From Porphyromonas uenonis 60-3 (GTDB lineage Bacteria > Bacteroidota > Bacteroidia > Bacteroidales > Porphyromonadaceae): DNA of 64,000 nucleotides. Below the pieces are notes generated by a model. The model was not told the origin of the DNA, made no database searches, and saw nothing but the letters and a program-made list of their open reading frames with translations. The translations under genes and the position numbers were made by a program. The stretch is taken from contig NZ_ACLR01000120.1 in assembly GCF_000174775.1 (NCBI RefSeq), forward strand, positions 27,319-91,318. The letters run 5' to 3'. Of the stretch, positions 4,579 through 56,484 are shown piece by piece (positions within the stretch are counted from its first letter, which is position 1; each line of letters starts with the position of its first letter).

Positions 4579-4621
4579 CATTCTCCCGAGGAAATCTCCT
4601 CGCGCCTCCGAGAGCAACTTT

Positions 4622-4676
4622 ATTTTCATGCCTATGAAAATCCATTTTCATTAGAAGGAAACAGGCAAACAGGGGC
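4622..4676. repeat. 22-bp palindromic repeat array (array 1, short)
   Basis: One full 22-bp unit begins at 4636 with the perfect 6+2+6 palindrome GAAAATCCATTTTC followed by an 8-bp spacer. A partial unit (GAAACAGG) starts exactly 22 bp later at 4658, and a half palindrome (TTTTCATGCC) precedes. It is the degenerate end member of the arrays described at 13283, 24036, 50382 and 56390. R1 copy 1 follows about 60 bp downstream. Confidence 0.6.
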
Positions 4677-4730: not shown

Positions 4731-4911
4731 TTCTCCTGAGGAAATCGGAAAACTCCAGGGAGCAAACGAATATTCTCCACGGAGGGCCGAAATAAAAGTT
4801 CGGAAGAATGAAATGAAACTTCGGAAGAAAGATTTCGAAGTTCCGATGAATTTTTCATTTTCTCGCTGGATAATCCAAAAGCTCCACCGAGGAATTGTCC
4901 GATTTCCTTGA
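4731..4911 (+). repeat. R1 interspersed repeat, copy 1
   Basis: About 180 bp nearly identical in its centre (4795-4860: CCACGGAGGGCCGAAATAAA, then TTCGGAAGAA twice, then TTTCGAAGTTCCG) to four other copies at 13038, 34156, 50092 and 56146. Imperfect inverted ends (CCTGAGGAAATCGG at the left, CCGATTTCCTTG at the right) frame it. Open frames through it are broken differently in the different copies, so it is not a gene. With the short 22-bp array it fills most of the 566-bp gap before the mechanosensitive channel gene. Confidence 0.85.
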
Positions 4912-6041: not shown

Positions 6042-8531
6042 ATGAATATATCTTTCAACTGGTTACAGCAATACCTACCTCGTCTAGAGGGTTATAATCC
6101 AAATGAAGTAGCGGAGACGCTCACGGCCATCGGTCTTGAGGTGGCTGGCGTCGAGCAGACTGAGTCTGTACGAGGCGGTCTGCGTGGTGTCGTCATAGGA
6201 CGCACGCTCACTTGCATCCCCCACCCTAACTCTGACCACCTGCATGTCTGCACGGTCGATCTCGGCGAGGAGGAGCCTGTGCAGATTGTCTGTGGAGCGC
6301 CCAATGTAGCTGCTGGTCAGACGGTCGTCGTCGCTACTGTCGGCACCACCCTATACGGACCCGATGGCGAGCCTTTTAAGATCAAAAAGTCCAAGCTACG
6401 TGGCGAACCTAGCATGGGTATGATTTGCTCGCAAGTGGAGATAGGTATGGGGGCTGACAGCTCTGGCATTTGGGTGCTAGAGGATGAGACGGTGCGGCCT
6501 GGGACACCTGCAGCTGACTACTTTGACCTAGCCAGTGACACCGTCATAGAGATAGACATAACGCCTAACCGTGTTGATGCGACCTCGCACTATGGCGTGG
6601 CGCGCGACCTAGCAGCTTACTACTCCTATCGTGAGGGTCAGGTAATCCGTGCGGAGCGTCCGACCCTGACGAAGCCTCAGGCGGTCGATGCGAAGGCTCC
6701 TGCCATACAGGTTGAGATGGAGGTCTCCGCTGAGGATTGTCCTCGCTACCAGGGGGTGACGATACGTGGTCTGAAGTGTGTCGAGAGCCCAGACTGGCTC
6801 AAGGAGCGACTACAAAGCATCGGCCAGCGTCCTATCAATGCGGTGGTTGATGTGACCAACTTCGTCTTACACGAGATCGGGCAACCGCTGCACGCTTTTG
6901 ACGCTCAGAAGATTGCTGGCGGGAAGCTGCGCATAGCTCATCTACCTGCTGGCACGCCTTTTACCACCTTGGATGGCGTAGAGCATAAGCTCACAGGCAT
7001 GGAGAATATGATCTGCGACAGCCAGCTCACACCGCTTTGCATCGGAGGCGTGATGGGCGGACTGGACTCGGGCGTGACGATGGATACGACAGACATATTT
7101 ATAGAGGCGGCCAACTTCAATCCGACGATCACACGTCGCGCTGCCAGAAGTCACGGGCTGAGCACCGACTCCTCCTTCCGCTTCGAGCGTGGACTAGATC
7201 CCGAGGCGACTGACTGGGCGCTCCAGCGTGCTGTATCGCTCATTCTGGAGATTTGCGGAGGCACCATAGCTGGTGAGACGGTGGATCACTATCGTATGCA
7301 CCTGGATCCAGTAGAGTTGACAATCTCTACGGACTATGTCTCTCGGACCATCGGTCGTGACCTGACGGCAGAGCAGCTACAGCTCATCTTAGACGCTTTG
7401 GAGATGTCGCCTAAGGCTGTGGAAGGTGGAGCTTTTGCCATCTCTGTGCCTCGCTATCGCTACGATGTGACACGTCCAGTGGATGTCGTCGAGGAGGTAC
7501 TGCGCATCTACGGTTACAATGCCGTCCCGCTATCGGGTTATGTGCATGCGAGTCTCTCTAAGCAGAGCGACCAAGACCATATCTACCATGCTCAGCTCAA
7601 GCTTTCGGAGCTACTCACAGGCTTTGGCTATCGAGAGATATTGAATAATTCGCTCACCTCTCGGCAATACTTTGAGGGGCAAAAGGCTTTTGACCTTAAT
7701 CAGCTCGTACCGATAGAGAATCCGCTGAGTCAAGAGCTCAACGTGCTGCGCCCCACCCTCCTCGTGGGTGGTCTAGAAACGATCTCTGACAATGTGCACC
7801 GCAAGCAACCTTACTGTGCGCTCTATGAGTGGGGCAACGTCTACCGCTACAAGCAGAACGACCAGGCGACTACGCCCCTAGACCAGTACACCCAAGCGCA
7901 CAGACTAGGCCTGTGGCTCTCGGGGACGCTCATGCCAAACAACTGGACGACCGCTGGCGAAGCAACTTCTCCCTATATGCTGCGAGGAGTTGTTGAGAAG
8001 CTCTTAGCGCACATGGGCTTTACGGCAGAGGACTACTCGGTGACTACACCTGCCGAGTGCCACGACCTGTGGAGCGAGGTGGTCTGCTACACCGATAGAG
8101 AGGGCAAGAGCCTCGCCTATGTAGGAGTCATTAGTAGCTATTGGCTCACGAAGTGCGATATCAAGCAACCAGTCTACTACGCCGAGCTATACAGCGACAC
8201 CTTGATGGCTCATCTGCTACAGCACAAGGTGGTTAGCACGGAGCTTAGCAAGTATCCAACGGTGAAGCGTGACTTAGCGCTACTCATCGACAACAACATT
8301 ACCTACGAAGCATTGGCTAGCACCGCTCGCAAGGCTGAGCGTAAGCTACTTCAGCGGGTTGAGCTCTTTGATGTCTACACGGGCAAGGAGCTACCTTCGG
8401 GCAAGAAGAGCTACGCCTTGAGCTTCTACCTACGTGACGACAAGGGCACCCTACGAGATGCCCAGATCGATGCCGCCATGAAGCGCATCTGGCAAGCCAT
8501 CGAGCAGGAGTACCACGCCACGCTTCGCTAG
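6042..8531 (+). CDS. pheT: Phenylalanyl-tRNA synthetase beta subunit
   Basis: 829 aa. Domains in order: N-terminal helix plus EMAP/OB tRNA-binding domain (about 40-150) with HPNSDHLHVC; B3/B4 editing domain (about 215-400, with SSFRFERGLDPE); B5 (about 415-485); a catalytic-like core with QSDQDHIYHAQLKLSELLTGFGYREI; and C-terminal FDX-ACB anticodon-binding domain (about 735-829, starting KYPTVKRDLALLID). It forms the alpha2-beta2 enzyme with PheS, whose gene is not in the window. Length and domain order are normal. Confidence 0.97.
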   Translation: MNISFNWLQQYLPRLEGYNPNEVAETLTAIGLEVAGVEQTESVRGGLRGVVIGRTLTCIPHPNSDHLHVCTVDLGEEEPVQIVCGAPNVAAGQTVVVATVGTTLYGPDGEPFKIKKSKLRGEPSMGMICSQVEIGMGADSSGIWVLEDETVRPGTPAADYFDLASDTVIEIDITPNRVDATSHYGVARDLAAYYSYREGQVIRAERPTLTKPQAVDAKAPAIQVEMEVSAEDCPRYQGVTIRGLKCVESPDWLKERLQSIGQRPINAVVDVTNFVLHEIGQPLHAFDAQKIAGGKLRIAHLPAGTPFTTLDGVEHKLTGMENMICDSQLTPLCIGGVMGGLDSGVTMDTTDIFIEAANFNPTITRRAARSHGLSTDSSFRFERGLDPEATDWALQRAVSLILEICGGTIAGETVDHYRMHLDPVELTISTDYVSRTIGRDLTAEQLQLILDALEMSPKAVEGGAFAISVPRYRYDVTRPVDVVEEVLRIYGYNAVPLSGYVHASLSKQSDQDHIYHAQLKLSELLTGFGYREILNNSLTSRQYFEGQKAFDLNQLVPIENPLSQELNVLRPTLLVGGLETISDNVHRKQPYCALYEWGNVYRYKQNDQATTPLDQYTQAHRLGLWLSGTLMPNNWTTAGEATSPYMLRGVVEKLLAHMGFTAEDYSVTTPAECHDLWSEVVCYTDREGKSLAYVGVISSYWLTKCDIKQPVYYAELYSDTLMAHLLQHKVVSTELSKYPTVKRDLALLIDNNITYEALASTARKAERKLLQRVELFDVYTGKELPSGKKSYALSFYLRDDKGTLRDAQIDAAMKRIWQAIEQEYHATLR

Positions 8532-13037: not shown

Positions 13038-13202
13038 TTCTTCGGAAGGAATACTCAAATAGCTCGGAGGAAAGCCAAAATCCCCACGGAGGGGCGAAAT
13101 AAAAGTTCGGAAGAATGAAATGAAAGTTCGGAAGAAAGATTTCGAAGTTCCGAAGAATTTCCGATTTCCTCCATGGAGATTTCCGAATACATCAGGAGGA
13201 AA
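13038..13202 (+). repeat. R1 interspersed repeat, copy 2
   Basis: The core at about 13075-13160 matches the other R1 copies (CCACGGAGGGGCGAAATAAA, two TTCGGAAGAA units 21 bp apart, TTTCGAAGTTCCG), but the flanks diverge from copies 1, 3 and 4 and the second unit has AAAGTTCGG rather than AAACTTCGG. It is followed about 80 bp later by a 22-bp palindromic array. Confidence 0.83.
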
Positions 13203-13282: not shown

Positions 13283-13380
13283 GAAAATGGATTTTCTCCC
13301 GCATGAAAATAGATTTTCATCCGTATGAAAACAGATTGCCGTGCGCAGGACAATAAAGTTTCGTCCGTATGAAACGGAGG
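13283..13380. repeat. 22-bp palindromic repeat array (array 2)
   Basis: Units start at 13283, 13305, 13327, 13349 and 13371, exactly 22 bp apart. Units 1 and 2 begin with perfect palindromes GAAAATGGATTTTC and GAAAATAGATTTTC, each followed by an 8-bp spacer ending CGCAT or CGTAT. Units 3 and 4 are mutated. The array ends 27 bp before the TACATTTG box ahead of murG. Confidence 0.85.
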
Positions 13381-21895: not shown

Positions 21896-23920
21896 ATGGC
21901 TACTCTCATCCTCTCTCTACTCCTCCTCTGCGCCACCACACCTCAGCTATGTGCGCAGCAACCCTCCCCACGCGACACCGTACAAACGCATCTATTAGAG
22001 ACCGTAGTGGTACGAGCTCCCCGTGAGCCAGACTACAAGCGTGGCATCATACCCGCACAGCAACTCTCAGGGCAAGAGCTCAAAGCGCTCAGTGCCTTCT
22101 CCATAGCCGATGCGCTCCGCTCCTTCTCGGGCGTTCAGGTCAAGGACTTCGGCGGAGTCGGTGGACTCAAGACGGTCAACATCCGCAGCATGGGCACCCA
22201 CCACGTTGGTGTCTTCTACGATGGTGTCGAGCTGAGCAATGCGCAAAACGGGCAAATAGACCTCGGCCAGTACTCCCTCGACAATATGGAGGCGATACAG
22301 GTCTTCAATGGGCAAAAGGGTAGCTACCTCCAGCCTGCCAAGGACTTTGGCTCTAGCGGTACCGTCTACCTTCAGACACGCAAGCCTACCTTTACCGATG
22401 GTGCGCAGACCAATCTGAGAGCAACTCTACGGACTGGCTCCTTTGACCTCTTCAACCCCGCCATACTGATCGAGCACCGCTTGGAGCCTAGAGTCTCCAT
22501 GTCCTTCAATGCAGAGTGGATCAAGAGTAGCGGCAAGTACAAGTTTAGATACAGGAAAGTCCTTCCCCTCACCCACGAGATAGCCTACGACACCACAGCC
22601 GTCCGGCACAATGGAGACATCAACGCCACACGACTCGAGGGCAATCTCCACATCGGGCTCCCCGATGGTCAGATGCTCGTCAAGGTGTACACCTACAACA
22701 GCGAGCGAGGCATCCCCGGCGCTATCGTCAATAATGTGTGGCGTCGTGGCGAGCGCCTCTGGGACAACAACAGCTTCGTCCAGACCACCTATGAGCAGCA
22801 GCTCAGCGACCGCATACGTCTACATGCCATCGCCAAGTATGCCTACTACCAGACCCACTTTGTGCGCAACGAGCCGACAGCCGCCTTCAAGGTGGACAAC
22901 CTCTACCAGCAGCAAGAGCTATACAGTTCGGTCGCCTCAGCCTTTCAGTTGATTGACCACTGGTACCTCTCCGCCGCCTATGATCTGCAGTGGAACAAGC
23001 TCGACGCCAATCTCTACGACTTCGTCTACCCGCACCGCTTCACCCACCTGCTCGCCCTCGCCTCGACCTATACCAATGAGTGGATCAATGCGCAGGTCAG
23101 CCTCCTCGGCACGCTAGCTCAGGACAAAGCGAAGCTACTCACACGTGCTCCCCTCTTTCGCAAGCTCACCCCCGCAGCCATCCTGTCGGTCAAGCCGTGG
23201 GAGGCGATTGATCTACGACTTAACGCCTTTTATAAGCAAAGCTTTCGCCTACCCACCTTCAACGATCTATACTACACCGAGATAGGCAATGTCAAGCTCG
23301 ACCCTGAGCACACCACCCAGTACAACGTGGGTCTGCAGTACCAGCTCGCACCGCAAAAGCCGTGGCTCCACACCCTGGACTTCAAGGTAGACGCTTACTA
23401 CAATCTCGTGACCAACAAAATCATCGCCTACCCCAAGGGACAGCAATTCCGCTGGACCATGATCAATCTCGGCAAGGTCGACATACGAGGCATCGACGCT
23501 CAGTGCACCTGGAGCCTCATCCCTATCCGTGATCTGCAGCTATCGCTGCGGGCTCAGTACACCTACCAGAGAGCCATCGAGGTCACCGATCCTAAGGAGA
23601 GCTACTACCGCCACCAGATCCCCTACATCCCCTGGCATAGCGGCTCCGCCACAGCAATCCTGCAGTATAAGGGGTGGCAGCTCAACTACAACTTTATCTA
23701 CGCTGGCGAGCGGTACAGTCAGCTGGAGAACTTCCCCGAGAATCATCTCCAGCCGTGGTACACCAACGACCTAGCCCTCGCCTACGAGCGCACCGTCCGA
23801 GGGTACGGCCTGCGTCTGCAGTTCGAGTGCAACAACCTCCTGAGCCAAGCCTACGATGTTGTCGCCAACTACCCCATGCCCCTGCGCAACTACCGTCTTA
23901 CGCTCATCGTGAGCCACTAG
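21896..23920 (+). CDS. TonB-dependent outer-membrane receptor, BtuB-like
   Basis: 674 aa. Signal peptide to about residue 21 (TPQLCAQ), then a TonB-box-like LLETVVVRAP, a plug domain (about 45-165, with SIADALRSFSGVQVKDFGGVGGLKTVNIRSMG) and a 22-strand barrel. Length and the short N-terminus (no carboxypeptidase-like SusC extension) place it with BtuB/cirA-type receptors rather than SusC. Together with the upstream propeller lipoprotein it resembles a BtuG-BtuB pair for vitamin B12. No cobalamin riboswitch is seen ahead of this pair. Confidence 0.8.
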   Translation: MATLILSLLLLCATTPQLCAQQPSPRDTVQTHLLETVVVRAPREPDYKRGIIPAQQLSGQELKALSAFSIADALRSFSGVQVKDFGGVGGLKTVNIRSMGTHHVGVFYDGVELSNAQNGQIDLGQYSLDNMEAIQVFNGQKGSYLQPAKDFGSSGTVYLQTRKPTFTDGAQTNLRATLRTGSFDLFNPAILIEHRLEPRVSMSFNAEWIKSSGKYKFRYRKVLPLTHEIAYDTTAVRHNGDINATRLEGNLHIGLPDGQMLVKVYTYNSERGIPGAIVNNVWRRGERLWDNNSFVQTTYEQQLSDRIRLHAIAKYAYYQTHFVRNEPTAAFKVDNLYQQQELYSSVASAFQLIDHWYLSAAYDLQWNKLDANLYDFVYPHRFTHLLALASTYTNEWINAQVSLLGTLAQDKAKLLTRAPLFRKLTPAAILSVKPWEAIDLRLNAFYKQSFRLPTFNDLYYTEIGNVKLDPEHTTQYNVGLQYQLAPQKPWLHTLDFKVDAYYNLVTNKIIAYPKGQQFRWTMINLGKVDIRGIDAQCTWSLIPIRDLQLSLRAQYTYQRAIEVTDPKESYYRHQIPYIPWHSGSATAILQYKGWQLNYNFIYAGERYSQLENFPENHLQPWYTNDLALAYERTVRGYGLRLQFECNNLLSQAYDVVANYPMPLRNYRLTLIVSH

Positions 23921-23999: not shown

Positions 24000-24035
24000 T
24001 CGTCTCATCTGTCTCTTTCCTTGGTTCCATCGGAT

Positions 24036-24182
24036 GAAACTAAAGTTTCAAGGGGGCTGGCACAAAAGTTTCATCTAGGTGAAACTAGAGTTTCATACCG
24101 AAGAAACTGAAGTTTCATACCGAGGAAACTAGATTTTCCTACCGAGGAAAATGGATTTTCATGGGCATGAAAATCTTTTGCC
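24036..24182. repeat. 22-bp palindromic repeat array (array 3, clearest)
   Basis: Units start at 24036, 24058, 24081, 24103, 24125, 24147 and 24169; all intervals are 22 bp except one of 23. Heads are perfect 6+2+6 palindromes: GAAACTAAAGTTTC, GAAACTAGAGTTTC, GAAACTGAAGTTTC and GAAAATGGATTTTC; GAAACTAGATTTTC has one change. The 8-bp spacer is mostly ATACCGAA/G. The array ends about 58 bp before the -7 box of the MATE gene. Confidence 0.92.
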
Positions 24183-24239
24183 ACCCTGAGGGCACGGTTG
24201 TTTCGCCCGTGGGGGTGGGTTCGCTGCCCCCATTTTTGA

Positions 24240-24247
24240 TACCTTTG
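24240..24247 (+). promoter_or_regulatory. Promoter -7 box (TACCTTTG) for the MATE gene
   Basis: TACCTTTG at this place gives a leader of about 50 nt to the proposed translation start. The expected -33 position is G-rich and does not match TTTG. Confidence 0.55.
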
Positions 24248-24304
24248 CACCAAGTTTGTAACCGAGGCTGTCGCAATAGATGACAGCGCTCACTAGAAGG
24301 TAAA

Positions 24305-25657
24305 ATCATCAAAACTAATAGCATAAACTTCACTCAAGGTCCGATCCGTAAGCAACTACTGCGACTGGCGGCTCCGATCGTCGCCACCTCGTTTGTCCAG
24401 ATGGCGTACAACTTCACCGACATGGCGTGGCTCGGACGTCTCGGCAGTCGTGAGGTGGCCGCCGTCGGAGTCATCGGAGTGCTCCTATGGATCGCTACGT
24501 CAATCGCTCAGCTCACCAAGACCAGTGCCGAAGTGTGCGTCTCGCAGAGCCTCGGAGCTCGTAATAAACCGCTTGCGATCAAGTTCGCCCGCCACTGTAC
24601 CACCTGGGCGCTCATCGTCGGGACGCTCCTAGCGCTCGTCTACCTGCTCTTTGGCTCTCCGATCGTGGGCATCTACAATCTAGAAGCGGATGTGCACCAG
24701 ATGGCGCTCCGCTATCTGCGCATCGTATTGGTTGGCTTGCCAGGCTACTTCCTGACGCTCGCCATGAGTGGCATTTACAATGCGCATGGACGGAGTATGA
24801 CCCCATTCAAGATCAATTCGCTGGGGCTACTCTTCAACATGATCCTTGACCCGCTACTCATCTTCGTCTGCCATCTAGGAGTCATCGGGGCAGCCCTCGC
24901 CACACTCCTCTCTCAGCTGGCCGTCTGCGCTATCCTCTACTATCGCATGCAGCACCGCGACAAGATACTGGACGGGAGCTCTATCGTAACAAAGCTAGCG
25001 GGAGAGCAGAGCCGACGCATCTTCGCTATTGGCGTACCAGTGGTGCTACTCAACTCGCTCTTTGCGCTGATCAGCATATTTATGGGACGCTTAGCATCTG
25101 AGCAGGGTGGCGCTATCGGCGTGGCGGTCATGACGACTGGCGGACAGCTAGAGGGCGTAACGTGGAATGCGTGCCAAGGCTTTTGCACTGCCCTAGCCAC
25201 TTTCGTAGGGCACAACTATGCGGCACGTCAGTTTGACCGTGTGTGGCGTGGCTACAAGACGACGATCCTCATGACGCTGTCGATAGGTCTCTTCGGGACG
25301 CTGCTCTTTCTCTTCCTCGGCAGGGCGTTCTTTGCGCTGATTGTGCCAGATCCTGAGACCTATATAGAGGGCGGACGATACCTGTACATCGCCAGCTTCT
25401 CCCAGCTCTTTATCATGGCGGAGATTACGACGCAGGGGCTGTTTTACGGTGTAGGACGGAGCAATACACCAGCCATAATCAGCATCGTAGGCAATCTGCT
25501 CCGCATACCGCTAGCGCTCCTACTGATATACTTGGGCTGGGGACTGCCAGCCGTCTGGTGGGCTATCTCCCTCTCATCCATCGGCAAAGGGATCACCGCC
25601 ATCATCGTACTACTCACCAAGAGAGACAAACTAGCCCCAACGAACTTAGCTGCTTAA
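24305..25657 (+). CDS. MATE family efflux transporter, probable non-AUG start
   Basis: 450 aa if started at ATC 24305, 418 aa from the first ATG at 24401. The codons before 24401 encode INFTQGPIRKQLLRLAAPIV, the conserved MATE N-terminus and first half of membrane helix 1, in the same open frame (stop at 24281). No ATG, GTG or TTG lies between. AGAAGG at 24295-24300 is well placed for ATC 24305 or 24308. Twelve membrane helices are predicted in total. MATE proteins export cationic drugs or metabolites with Na+ or H+. The ATG 24401 product would lack half of helix 1. The start is therefore uncertain. Confidence 0.85.
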   Translation: MIKTNSINFTQGPIRKQLLRLAAPIVATSFVQMAYNFTDMAWLGRLGSREVAAVGVIGVLLWIATSIAQLTKTSAEVCVSQSLGARNKPLAIKFARHCTTWALIVGTLLALVYLLFGSPIVGIYNLEADVHQMALRYLRIVLVGLPGYFLTLAMSGIYNAHGRSMTPFKINSLGLLFNMILDPLLIFVCHLGVIGAALATLLSQLAVCAILYYRMQHRDKILDGSSIVTKLAGEQSRRIFAIGVPVVLLNSLFALISIFMGRLASEQGGAIGVAVMTTGGQLEGVTWNACQGFCTALATFVGHNYAARQFDRVWRGYKTTILMTLSIGLFGTLLFLFLGRAFFALIVPDPETYIEGGRYLYIASFSQLFIMAEITTQGLFYGVGRSNTPAIISIVGNLLRIPLALLLIYLGWGLPAVWWAISLSSIGKGITAIIVLLTKRDKLAPTNLAA

Positions 25658-34155: not shown

Positions 34156-34340
34156 TCAAGGAAATCGGACAATTCCTCGGTGGAGCTTTTTGATTATCCA
34201 GCGAGGAAACGAAAAATTCATCGGAACTTCGAAATCTTTCTTCCGAAGTTTCATTTCATTCTTCCGAACTTTTATTTCGGCCCTCCGTGGGGAATTTTCA
34301 TTTGCTCCGTGAAGATTTCCGATTTTCTCGGGAGAGATTG
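34156..34340 (-). repeat. R1 interspersed repeat, copy 3 (reverse orientation)
   Basis: The reverse complement is nearly identical to copies 1 and 4 across about 150 bp, including the right flank CCACCGAGGAATTG and end CCGATTTCCTTG. It is the only copy in this orientation and the only one without an obvious 22-bp array next to it. Confidence 0.87.
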
Positions 34341-50091: not shown

Positions 50092-50273
50092 TTGCTCCCG
50101 AGGAAATCGTAAATATCCAACGAGGAAACGAAAATTCCCCACGGAGGGCCGAAATAAAAGTTCGGAAGAATGAAATGAAACTTCGGAAGAAAGATTTCGA
50201 AGTTCCGATGAATTTTTTGTTTCCTCGCTGGATAATCAAAAATCTCCACCGAGGAATTGGTCGATTTCCTCAA
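50092..50273 (+). repeat. R1 interspersed repeat, copy 4
   Basis: Nearly identical to copy 3 (reverse complement) over its whole length. It begins 30 bp beyond the -33 element of the metK promoter and points away from metK. Confidence 0.87.
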
Positions 50274-56145: not shown

Positions 56146-56332
56146 AGTCTCCACTAAGGAAATCCGCAACGCTTCGGTGGAGATCTTTTGTTTTCCACGG
56201 AGACGGGATATAAAACTTCGGAAGAATGAAATGAAACTTCGGAAGAAAGAAATCAAAGTTCCGAAGAATTTTCCCGTTCCTCCGTGGAGACTCACCGTTT
56301 CCTCCATAGCCAATTCAGATTCCCTCGGGAGT
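56146..56332 (+). repeat. R1 interspersed repeat, copy 5 (divergent)
   Basis: The core AACTTCGGAAGAATGAAATG plus the following CTTCGGAAGAAAG matches the other copies, but AAATCAAAGTTCCG replaces TTTCGAAGTTCCG and the flanks differ. It lies between nrdG and rpsP, followed by a 22-bp array. Confidence 0.78.
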
Positions 56333-56389: not shown

Positions 56390-56484
56390 GATGTTTCCAA
56401 AAACTTTCCAGCCTCGGAAAAGTAAGTTTCCAAGGGTTTTCCAAGGGGGGAAAGTTTGCTTTCCACCGTTGGAAAACGAACGGT
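56390..56484. repeat. 22-bp palindromic repeat array (array 5)
   Basis: Units at 56416 (GGAAAAGTAAGTTTCC), 56449 (GGAAAGTTTGCTTTCC, perfect) and 56471 are separated by 33 and 22 bp, that is 1.5 and 1 periods; a half unit TTTCCAAGGGG lies between. A preceding TTTCCAAAAACTTTCC belongs to the same type. Confidence 0.72.

Follow-up and report, generated by a model that had tools for sequence, protein, structure and literature searches.

The nearest described counterpart of the repeats reported here is BrickBuilt, which the available portion of its source presents as a 23-nt minisatellite in a MITE of P. gingivalis (PMC4596501). The same portion mentions 22-nt tandem direct repeats in P. gingivalis W83 and gives neither their sequence nor their place (PMC4596501). 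Here we analyze a 64,000-nucleotide stretch (the window) of contig C131 in the 2.24 Mb draft genome of Porphyromonas uenonis 60-3, and the family of intergenic repeats to which a tandem array within it belongs. Two further systems offer points of comparison: REP/BIME sequences are palindromes dispersed between genes and accompanied by RAYT transposases, and plasmid iterons are direct repeats of about two helical turns.

As far as BrickBuilt is described in the available text, our arrays resemble it in being intergenic tandem arrays of short palindrome-bearing units (TCTCATATGAGA in the unit taken here for BrickBuilt), in changing copy number by whole units and in being carried by a MITE. The unit sequences are unrelated, and the period of BrickBuilt is 23 bp against the 22 bp of the window array, which, unlike BrickBuilt, is without MITE ends. 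As the BrickBuilt unit we took AGACCATAGTATCCTCTCATATG, which forms an 18.9-copy 23-bp array in Porphyromonas genome G006; the available text of PMC4596501 prints no unit. The palindrome TCTCATATGAGA occurs 0 times in our samples of P. uenonis 60-3 and P. uenonis G024 (hereafter the two P. uenonis genomes). A copy of BrickBuilt was rejected because the unit differs and no recurring leader or tail with terminal inverted repeats surrounds the window array. The W83 repeats, as mentioned in the available text, have the period of 22 in common with the window array; most 22-bp arrays of G006 are AT-rich, unlike GAAACT, and one three-unit array in that genome is of GAAACT type.

The likeness to REP/BIME lies in the dispersal of palindromes between genes. 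Across 26 genomes the Y1 transposase (PF01797) has matches in G001, G017 and G024 and no match in P. uenonis 60-3, G022 or G025; a REP/RAYT system was rejected on the ground that the enzyme is absent from three of the four array-rich genomes. With plasmid iterons the arrays share direct repeats of about 22 bp that can be read as phased protein sites, the difference being that those of P. uenonis 60-3 are spread over chromosomal gaps. The initial annotation had excluded a CRISPR, rightly so, as the 8-bp spacers recur, ATGGGCAT and TCCCGTAT eight times each among the units of the two P. uenonis genomes. A known RNA was also rejected: no Rfam family matches at gathering score between 23700 and 24700, where a single match is at chance level (E 0.16).

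Organization of the window array

The array occupies positions 24036–24182, between a gene for a TonB-dependent receptor upstream (21896–23920, forward strand; its matches fall below curated cut-offs) and one for a MATE family efflux transporter downstream (24401–25657, forward strand). It had been described as seven 14-bp palindromes of 6+2+6 design at a strict 22-bp period. Four units are indeed perfect palindromes and a fifth nearly so, while the two edge units are not. The perfect leader unit GAAACTAAAGTTTC (24036–24049) is followed by the edge unit GGCACAAAAGTTTC (24059–24072), a poor palindrome with an outer arm of GGCAC type, and by the perfect palindromes GAAACTAGAGTTTC (24081–24094) and GAAACTGAAGTTTC (24103–24116). 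In GAAACTAGATTTTC (24125–24138) a C-type left arm faces an A-type right arm, giving a single mismatched pair, and the A-type unit GAAAATGGATTTTC (24147–24160) is again perfect. The second edge unit, GAAAATCTTTTGCC (24169–24182), is also a poor palindrome, and its outer TTGCC arm mirrors the GGCAC edge at 24059. Counted from 24036, the first step is 23 bp and the next five are 22 bp, so that the period is strict for all steps but the first; a further 22-bp step leads to a degenerate extra unit, GGCACGGTTGTTTC (24191–24204), which keeps the register. The placement of all palindromes on one face of the helix holds approximately, since a 22-bp step rotates each unit by 34 degrees if a turn takes 10.5 bp and by 0 if it takes 11.

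Downstream of the array stands a TACCTTTG box (24240–24247, forward strand), which matches the Bacteroidetes -7 box. It begins 57 bases after 24182, against the 58 bp given initially, and similarity to relatives on the box side begins at about 24218. The MATE protein is 98% identical to its counterpart in P. uenonis DSM 23387, and the surrounding aligned DNA is 94–95% identical. The MATE frame is open upstream of its listed ATG, with no common start codon there (window 24300–24401).

Relative to P. uenonis G024, the array coincides with a break in synteny (24005–24218) between the TonB-receptor and MATE genes: its left flank adjoins other sequence in that genome, where the right flank is found at another place of the same contig. 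In our samples of the two P. uenonis genomes the left flank has 5 matches, the matches listed comprising the syntenic place and three short ones (about 42–55 bp), and the right flank has 0. Upstream of the orthologous MATE promoter, G025 has a stretch like the mobile element A described below with two units, G022 has an array, and P. uenonis G024 has instead a repeat element of a 21-bp type. No specific link ties the array to the 24240 promoter, because the same promoter in P. uenonis G024 has this different repeat upstream.

A family of intergenic arrays

The paired pattern GAAAMTNNAKTTTC occurs 127 times in the genome of P. uenonis 60-3, against 0 for a reversed-pattern control. In 737,026 sampled bases, a third of the genome, we called 32 arrays with 129 units (the sample is non-random, its contigs besides the window contig having been picked for their arrays and three tiny ones dropped; a few of the arrays are weak calls of two units), and three dinucleotide shuffles of the sample gave 0 arrays. 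Of the steps within these arrays, 90 measure 22 bp, 3 measure 23 and 4 measure 24. With ORF-based gene calls, no array overlaps a gene in either sample (0/32 in P. uenonis 60-3, 0/16 in P. uenonis G024). The window itself holds a two-unit array of the family that adjoins a 21-bp repeat element (4614–4649) and an A-type array (13283–13362) whose syntenic counterpart in P. uenonis G024 is 22 bp shorter. Degenerate related repeats lie at 56417–56473, upstream of a second TACCTTTG. Among titles and abstract openings in the literature, we found none describing a GAAACT-type array family.

Units were called by their likeness to GAAAMT, which limits the arm variety that is visible; among the 129, GAAACT and GAAAAT are the dominant arm types, GGCACT and GGAACT are rarer, and centre and spacer vary. 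In 120 of the 129 units the two bases of the centre dinucleotide are both purines or both pyrimidines. Matched C-to-A changes in opposite arms had been read as selection for dyad symmetry, an argument that does not survive the wider count. The C/A types of the two arms differ within 11 of 126 units (the other 3 have a T at that position); of 97 neighbours, 8 differ in the types of the arms that face each other across a spacer (Fisher p=1.0). Matching is as good across spacers as across the dyad, and compensatory change is rejected as a sign of selection. In P. uenonis G024 arms disagree in any way within 8 of 40 units and across 5 of 30 spacers. Arm type is shared by whole blocks within an array.

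Paired units number 127 in P. uenonis 60-3, 68 in G024, 64 in G022, 11 in G025, 2 in G006 and 1 in G001, and the remaining 20 of the 26 Porphyromonas genomes have none. Of 393 Bacteroidales genomes drawn evenly, 6 have paired units, including G129, of another family, with 8. Single sites outnumber their reversed control in P. uenonis 60-3 (147/1), G022 (96/1), G024 (95/1), G025 (34/12) and G129 (31/1), so that the GAAACT site is over-represented in a Bacteroidales genome outside the Porphyromonas family. The ratio is hardly or not raised in G001 (10/8) and G300 (5/2), and each of the 20 remaining genomes, out of 27 searched, has between 0 and 3 sites. The reversed control pattern itself reaches 12 in G025 and 8 in G001, perhaps through another palindrome family.

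Conservation between relatives

At five syntenic places the arrays of the two P. uenonis genomes differ by multiples of 22 bp. Unit variation of the slippage type, which the initial annotation had named as evidence against its reading, is therefore largely what orthologous arrays display. The sequence within the units changes unevenly. In five syntenic pairs 2 of 216 arm positions differ, against 119 of 1492 flank positions (p=1.3e-5), 17 of 108 spacer positions and 15 of 36 centre positions, a comparison in which repeated units can align to the wrong partner and thereby favour arm identity. Arms conserved more than spacer and centre, as these five pairs have them, are what is expected of an array of dimer-binding operators. 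The count omits C131:33283, with flank identity just below the 0.80 cut (arms 0/24), and C30:42876, where the array has decayed in P. uenonis G024; over all seven syntenic places the contrast is weaker (arms 16/276 against flanks 225/1871, p=0.0015). For 25 of the 32 arrays our two-flank test gave no syntenic place in 800,000 bases of P. uenonis G024. Among these 25, C69:152634, at a contig end, has its left side and units in common with that genome, and at C69:90716 the latter carries another repeat in place of the array. Comparison of 19 stretches around arrays in G022 added one further pair (arms 0/24, flank 47/270). Judged from these alignments, conservation within the P. uenonis group seems stronger in the arms than in the spacer.

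Association with mobile DNA

The arrays are found in three settings: within an element of about 300 bp, which we call element A, beside a very common element made of 21-bp repeats, or without repeated outer flanks, as is the case for the window array. Element A is a MITE with inverted ends CAGGGCTGACGCATTATA (the left end of one copy differs), and three copies have 10-bp direct repeats on both sides. The copy at C71:30989 carries four units, and in P. uenonis G024 (C1, about 42851) the corresponding site is empty; the duplicated sequence is TGCGAGGTGC. This copy is inserted just upstream of a TACCTTTG box. Neither CAGGGCTGACGCATTATA ends nor a 10-bp target duplication were seen around the window array.

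Two elements of G006 are bounded by ends that differ from those of element A at one or two positions; they encode a transposase with DDE_Tnp_1_assoc and DDE_Tnp_1 domains, a make-up that we take to be of ISAs1 type. Seven near-full-length relatives of this transposase (53–55% identity) are present in G025, and none was found in the draft genome of P. uenonis 60-3. Element A thus shares similar ends with a putative ISAs1-type insertion sequence, whereas the available text likens those of BrickBuilt to the IS5 family (PMC4596501). The very common dispersed 21-bp-repeat element (with repeats like GAAATAAAACTTCGGAAGAAT) occurs in the window at 4788–4829, 13096–13158, 34238–34287, 50150–50191 and 56213–56269, and the flanks of arrays beside this element give 72 to 127 BLAST pieces in the samples of the two P. 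uenonis genomes.

A common period in Porphyromonas non-coding DNA

Tandem repeats were called with TRF on non-coding DNA at a score of at least 50, using for four other Porphyromonas genomes 200 kb each in evenly spaced stretches chosen blind to arrays and covering part of each genome. Periods of 21–23 make up 98 of 123 non-coding arrays in P. uenonis 60-3, 88 of 134 in P. uenonis G024, 6 of 11 in G006 (with periods of 44 or 46 in the other five), 22 of 29 in G001, 15 of 16 in G012 (the other one being 44) and 25 of 25 in G017. The corresponding counts in coding arrays are 6/26, 3/22, 0/3, 2/3, 0/2 and 0/7. In 250 kb of E. coli K-12, coding and non-coding, TRF gave 5 rows with periods of 21, 12, 19, 98 and 20. 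Outside the genus, at a score of at least 40, periods of 21–22 account for 3 of 7 arrays in 40 kb of G129 and for 1 of 5 in a 20-kb stretch of G300 that was picked for its known array. The 25 arrays of G017 are mostly of period 22, with many GATATC-containing units unlike those of other species.

In P. uenonis 60-3, 8-mers of non-coding DNA recur most often at lags of 22 (692), 21 (389) and 44 (305), the next highest being 72, and those of coding DNA peak at multiples of 3 (this spectrum was used for P. uenonis 60-3 alone, the baseline in P. uenonis G024 being near 8,000, probably through runs of N). Among the 61 period-21 arrays of P. uenonis 60-3, 33 of the 40 classified belong to the 21-bp element, and some others are heptamer runs. 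A sister family, GGAACT-4-AGTTCC, has a 16-bp core and a 6-bp spacer, and all of its 24 neighbour steps within 40 bp measure 22.

Arms of at least 6 bp occur in 28 of 37 units of period 22–23 in P. uenonis 60-3, in 31 of 55 in P. uenonis G024 and in 7 of 10 in G006 (five of the seven being of BrickBuilt type, in a set that includes 60 kb chosen to find BrickBuilt), against 0.8, 1.6 and 1.2 after shuffling. Such 6-bp arms are less frequent in G001 (3/10), G012 (2/15) and G017 (2/24). A score for symmetry of the whole unit has low power, flagging 5 of the 37 units of P. uenonis 60-3 although 28 have 6-bp arms. Unit sequences differ between species, and some are common to the two P. uenonis genomes. 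P. uenonis G024 also has a 23-bp array family with the palindrome AATTCCTAGGTAGGAATT (26 arrays clustered), the 14-bp core of which is absent from the sample of P. uenonis 60-3. Compared in this way, species seem to differ less in the step than in the sequence of their arrays.

Position relative to genes and promoters

The initial annotation had named a lack of genome-wide enrichment upstream of promoters as evidence against its reading. Of 34 arrays, 13 have a TAnnTTTG box no more than 100 bp away in the direction of a gene start, against 8.2 expected from random placement in the same gaps (p=0.033; convergent and unplaced arrays left out), a weak excess in a family that occurs in all types of gap. 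Boxes within 300 bp point away from the array in 29 cases and toward it in 7 (6 and 3 in P. uenonis G024), an imbalance that location between genes alone would favour. Among the 27 of 32 arrays that could be placed in P. uenonis 60-3, 16 lie in tandem, 8 in divergent and 3 in convergent gaps, which hold 0.69, 0.20 and 0.11 of the intergenic length; the 16 of P. uenonis G024 are distributed 8, 2 and 6, with convergent gaps making up just 0.14 of the length counted. Over both genomes, 9 of the 43 placed arrays are in convergent gaps.

Discussion

We tentatively read the arrays as a predicted platform for stacked dimers of a putative protein, carried by mobile DNA, a reading that we regard as possible though short of probable. 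The window array is one among many intergenic rows of 14-bp near-palindromes spaced at 22 bp. We predict that every such site is bound by a single dimer, and the 22-bp step would allow neighbouring dimers to stack on nearly one side of the DNA. We infer the protein, its dimeric binding and its role alike. A step kept across species, together with arms kept within the P. uenonis group, is fitted best by stacked dimers of a sequence-reading protein. The proposal of stacked dimer sites made in the initial annotation thus remains the best reading, even though its argument from compensatory change has fallen and both the weak promoter excess and the slippage-type variation tell against it. As to role, a general one, in chromosome structure or as a roadblock between genes, would be more likely than control of the MATE gene, because the arrays occupy all kinds of intergenic gap.

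The main rival comes close behind, and we consider it a serious possibility, if one we lean against: the arrays could be a passenger minisatellite, in which palindromic seeds are spread between genes by mobile elements and units are then gained and lost through slippage or unequal recombination, with no host protein involved and with a 22-bp step that reflects the mode of array formation. Carriage by a MITE explains dispersal without any host function, and element A has brought four units to a place where P. uenonis G024 has an empty site, with a 10-bp target duplication. The same account covers the differences of 22-bp multiples between orthologous arrays, a distribution that roughly tracks intergenic length, the homogeneity of arm type in blocks and the decay of one array in P. 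uenonis G024. Neutral drift should, however, strike the arms as it does the spacer and centre, and the retained arrays show otherwise; nor does a passenger give any reason for one step across families with different core lengths.

That the arrays act instead as hairpin chains, whether in transcripts or in exposed DNA, strikes us as improbable. A length of 22 is two turns of the A-form helix, and the window array folds better than its shuffles (z of -4.85 as RNA and -7.40 as DNA), with the array edges at 24059 and 24169 pairing to close the predicted fold. Good folding is nevertheless expected of any palindromic array, arm changes of the wobble type are seldom seen (3 of 129 units have T at arm position 5) and the Rfam search around the array gave no match at gathering score. 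We give slightly less credence still to a promoter element, that is, to an array-bound regulator of the 24240 promoter and similar ones. The excess of TAnnTTTG boxes within 100 bp and the preponderance of boxes pointing away from arrays would suit such a regulator, but the excess is weak and one among several tests, convergent gaps hold a share of the placed arrays, and no such array stands at the orthologous promoter of P. uenonis G024.

The stacked-dimer platform can be extended to the genus in a form that we hold to be rather doubtful: Porphyromonas chromosomes would carry arrays of dyads tied to a spacing of two helical turns, and the 22-bp step would persist as unit sequences are replaced species by species, as a platform with drifting DNA specificity would give. 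If it is the step rather than the sequence that is kept, the arrays of the genus would point to one architecture-dependent process, for which a protein platform and a length-measuring way of making repeats are the candidates, and an overlooked class of repeats would become a source of candidate regulatory or structural sites.
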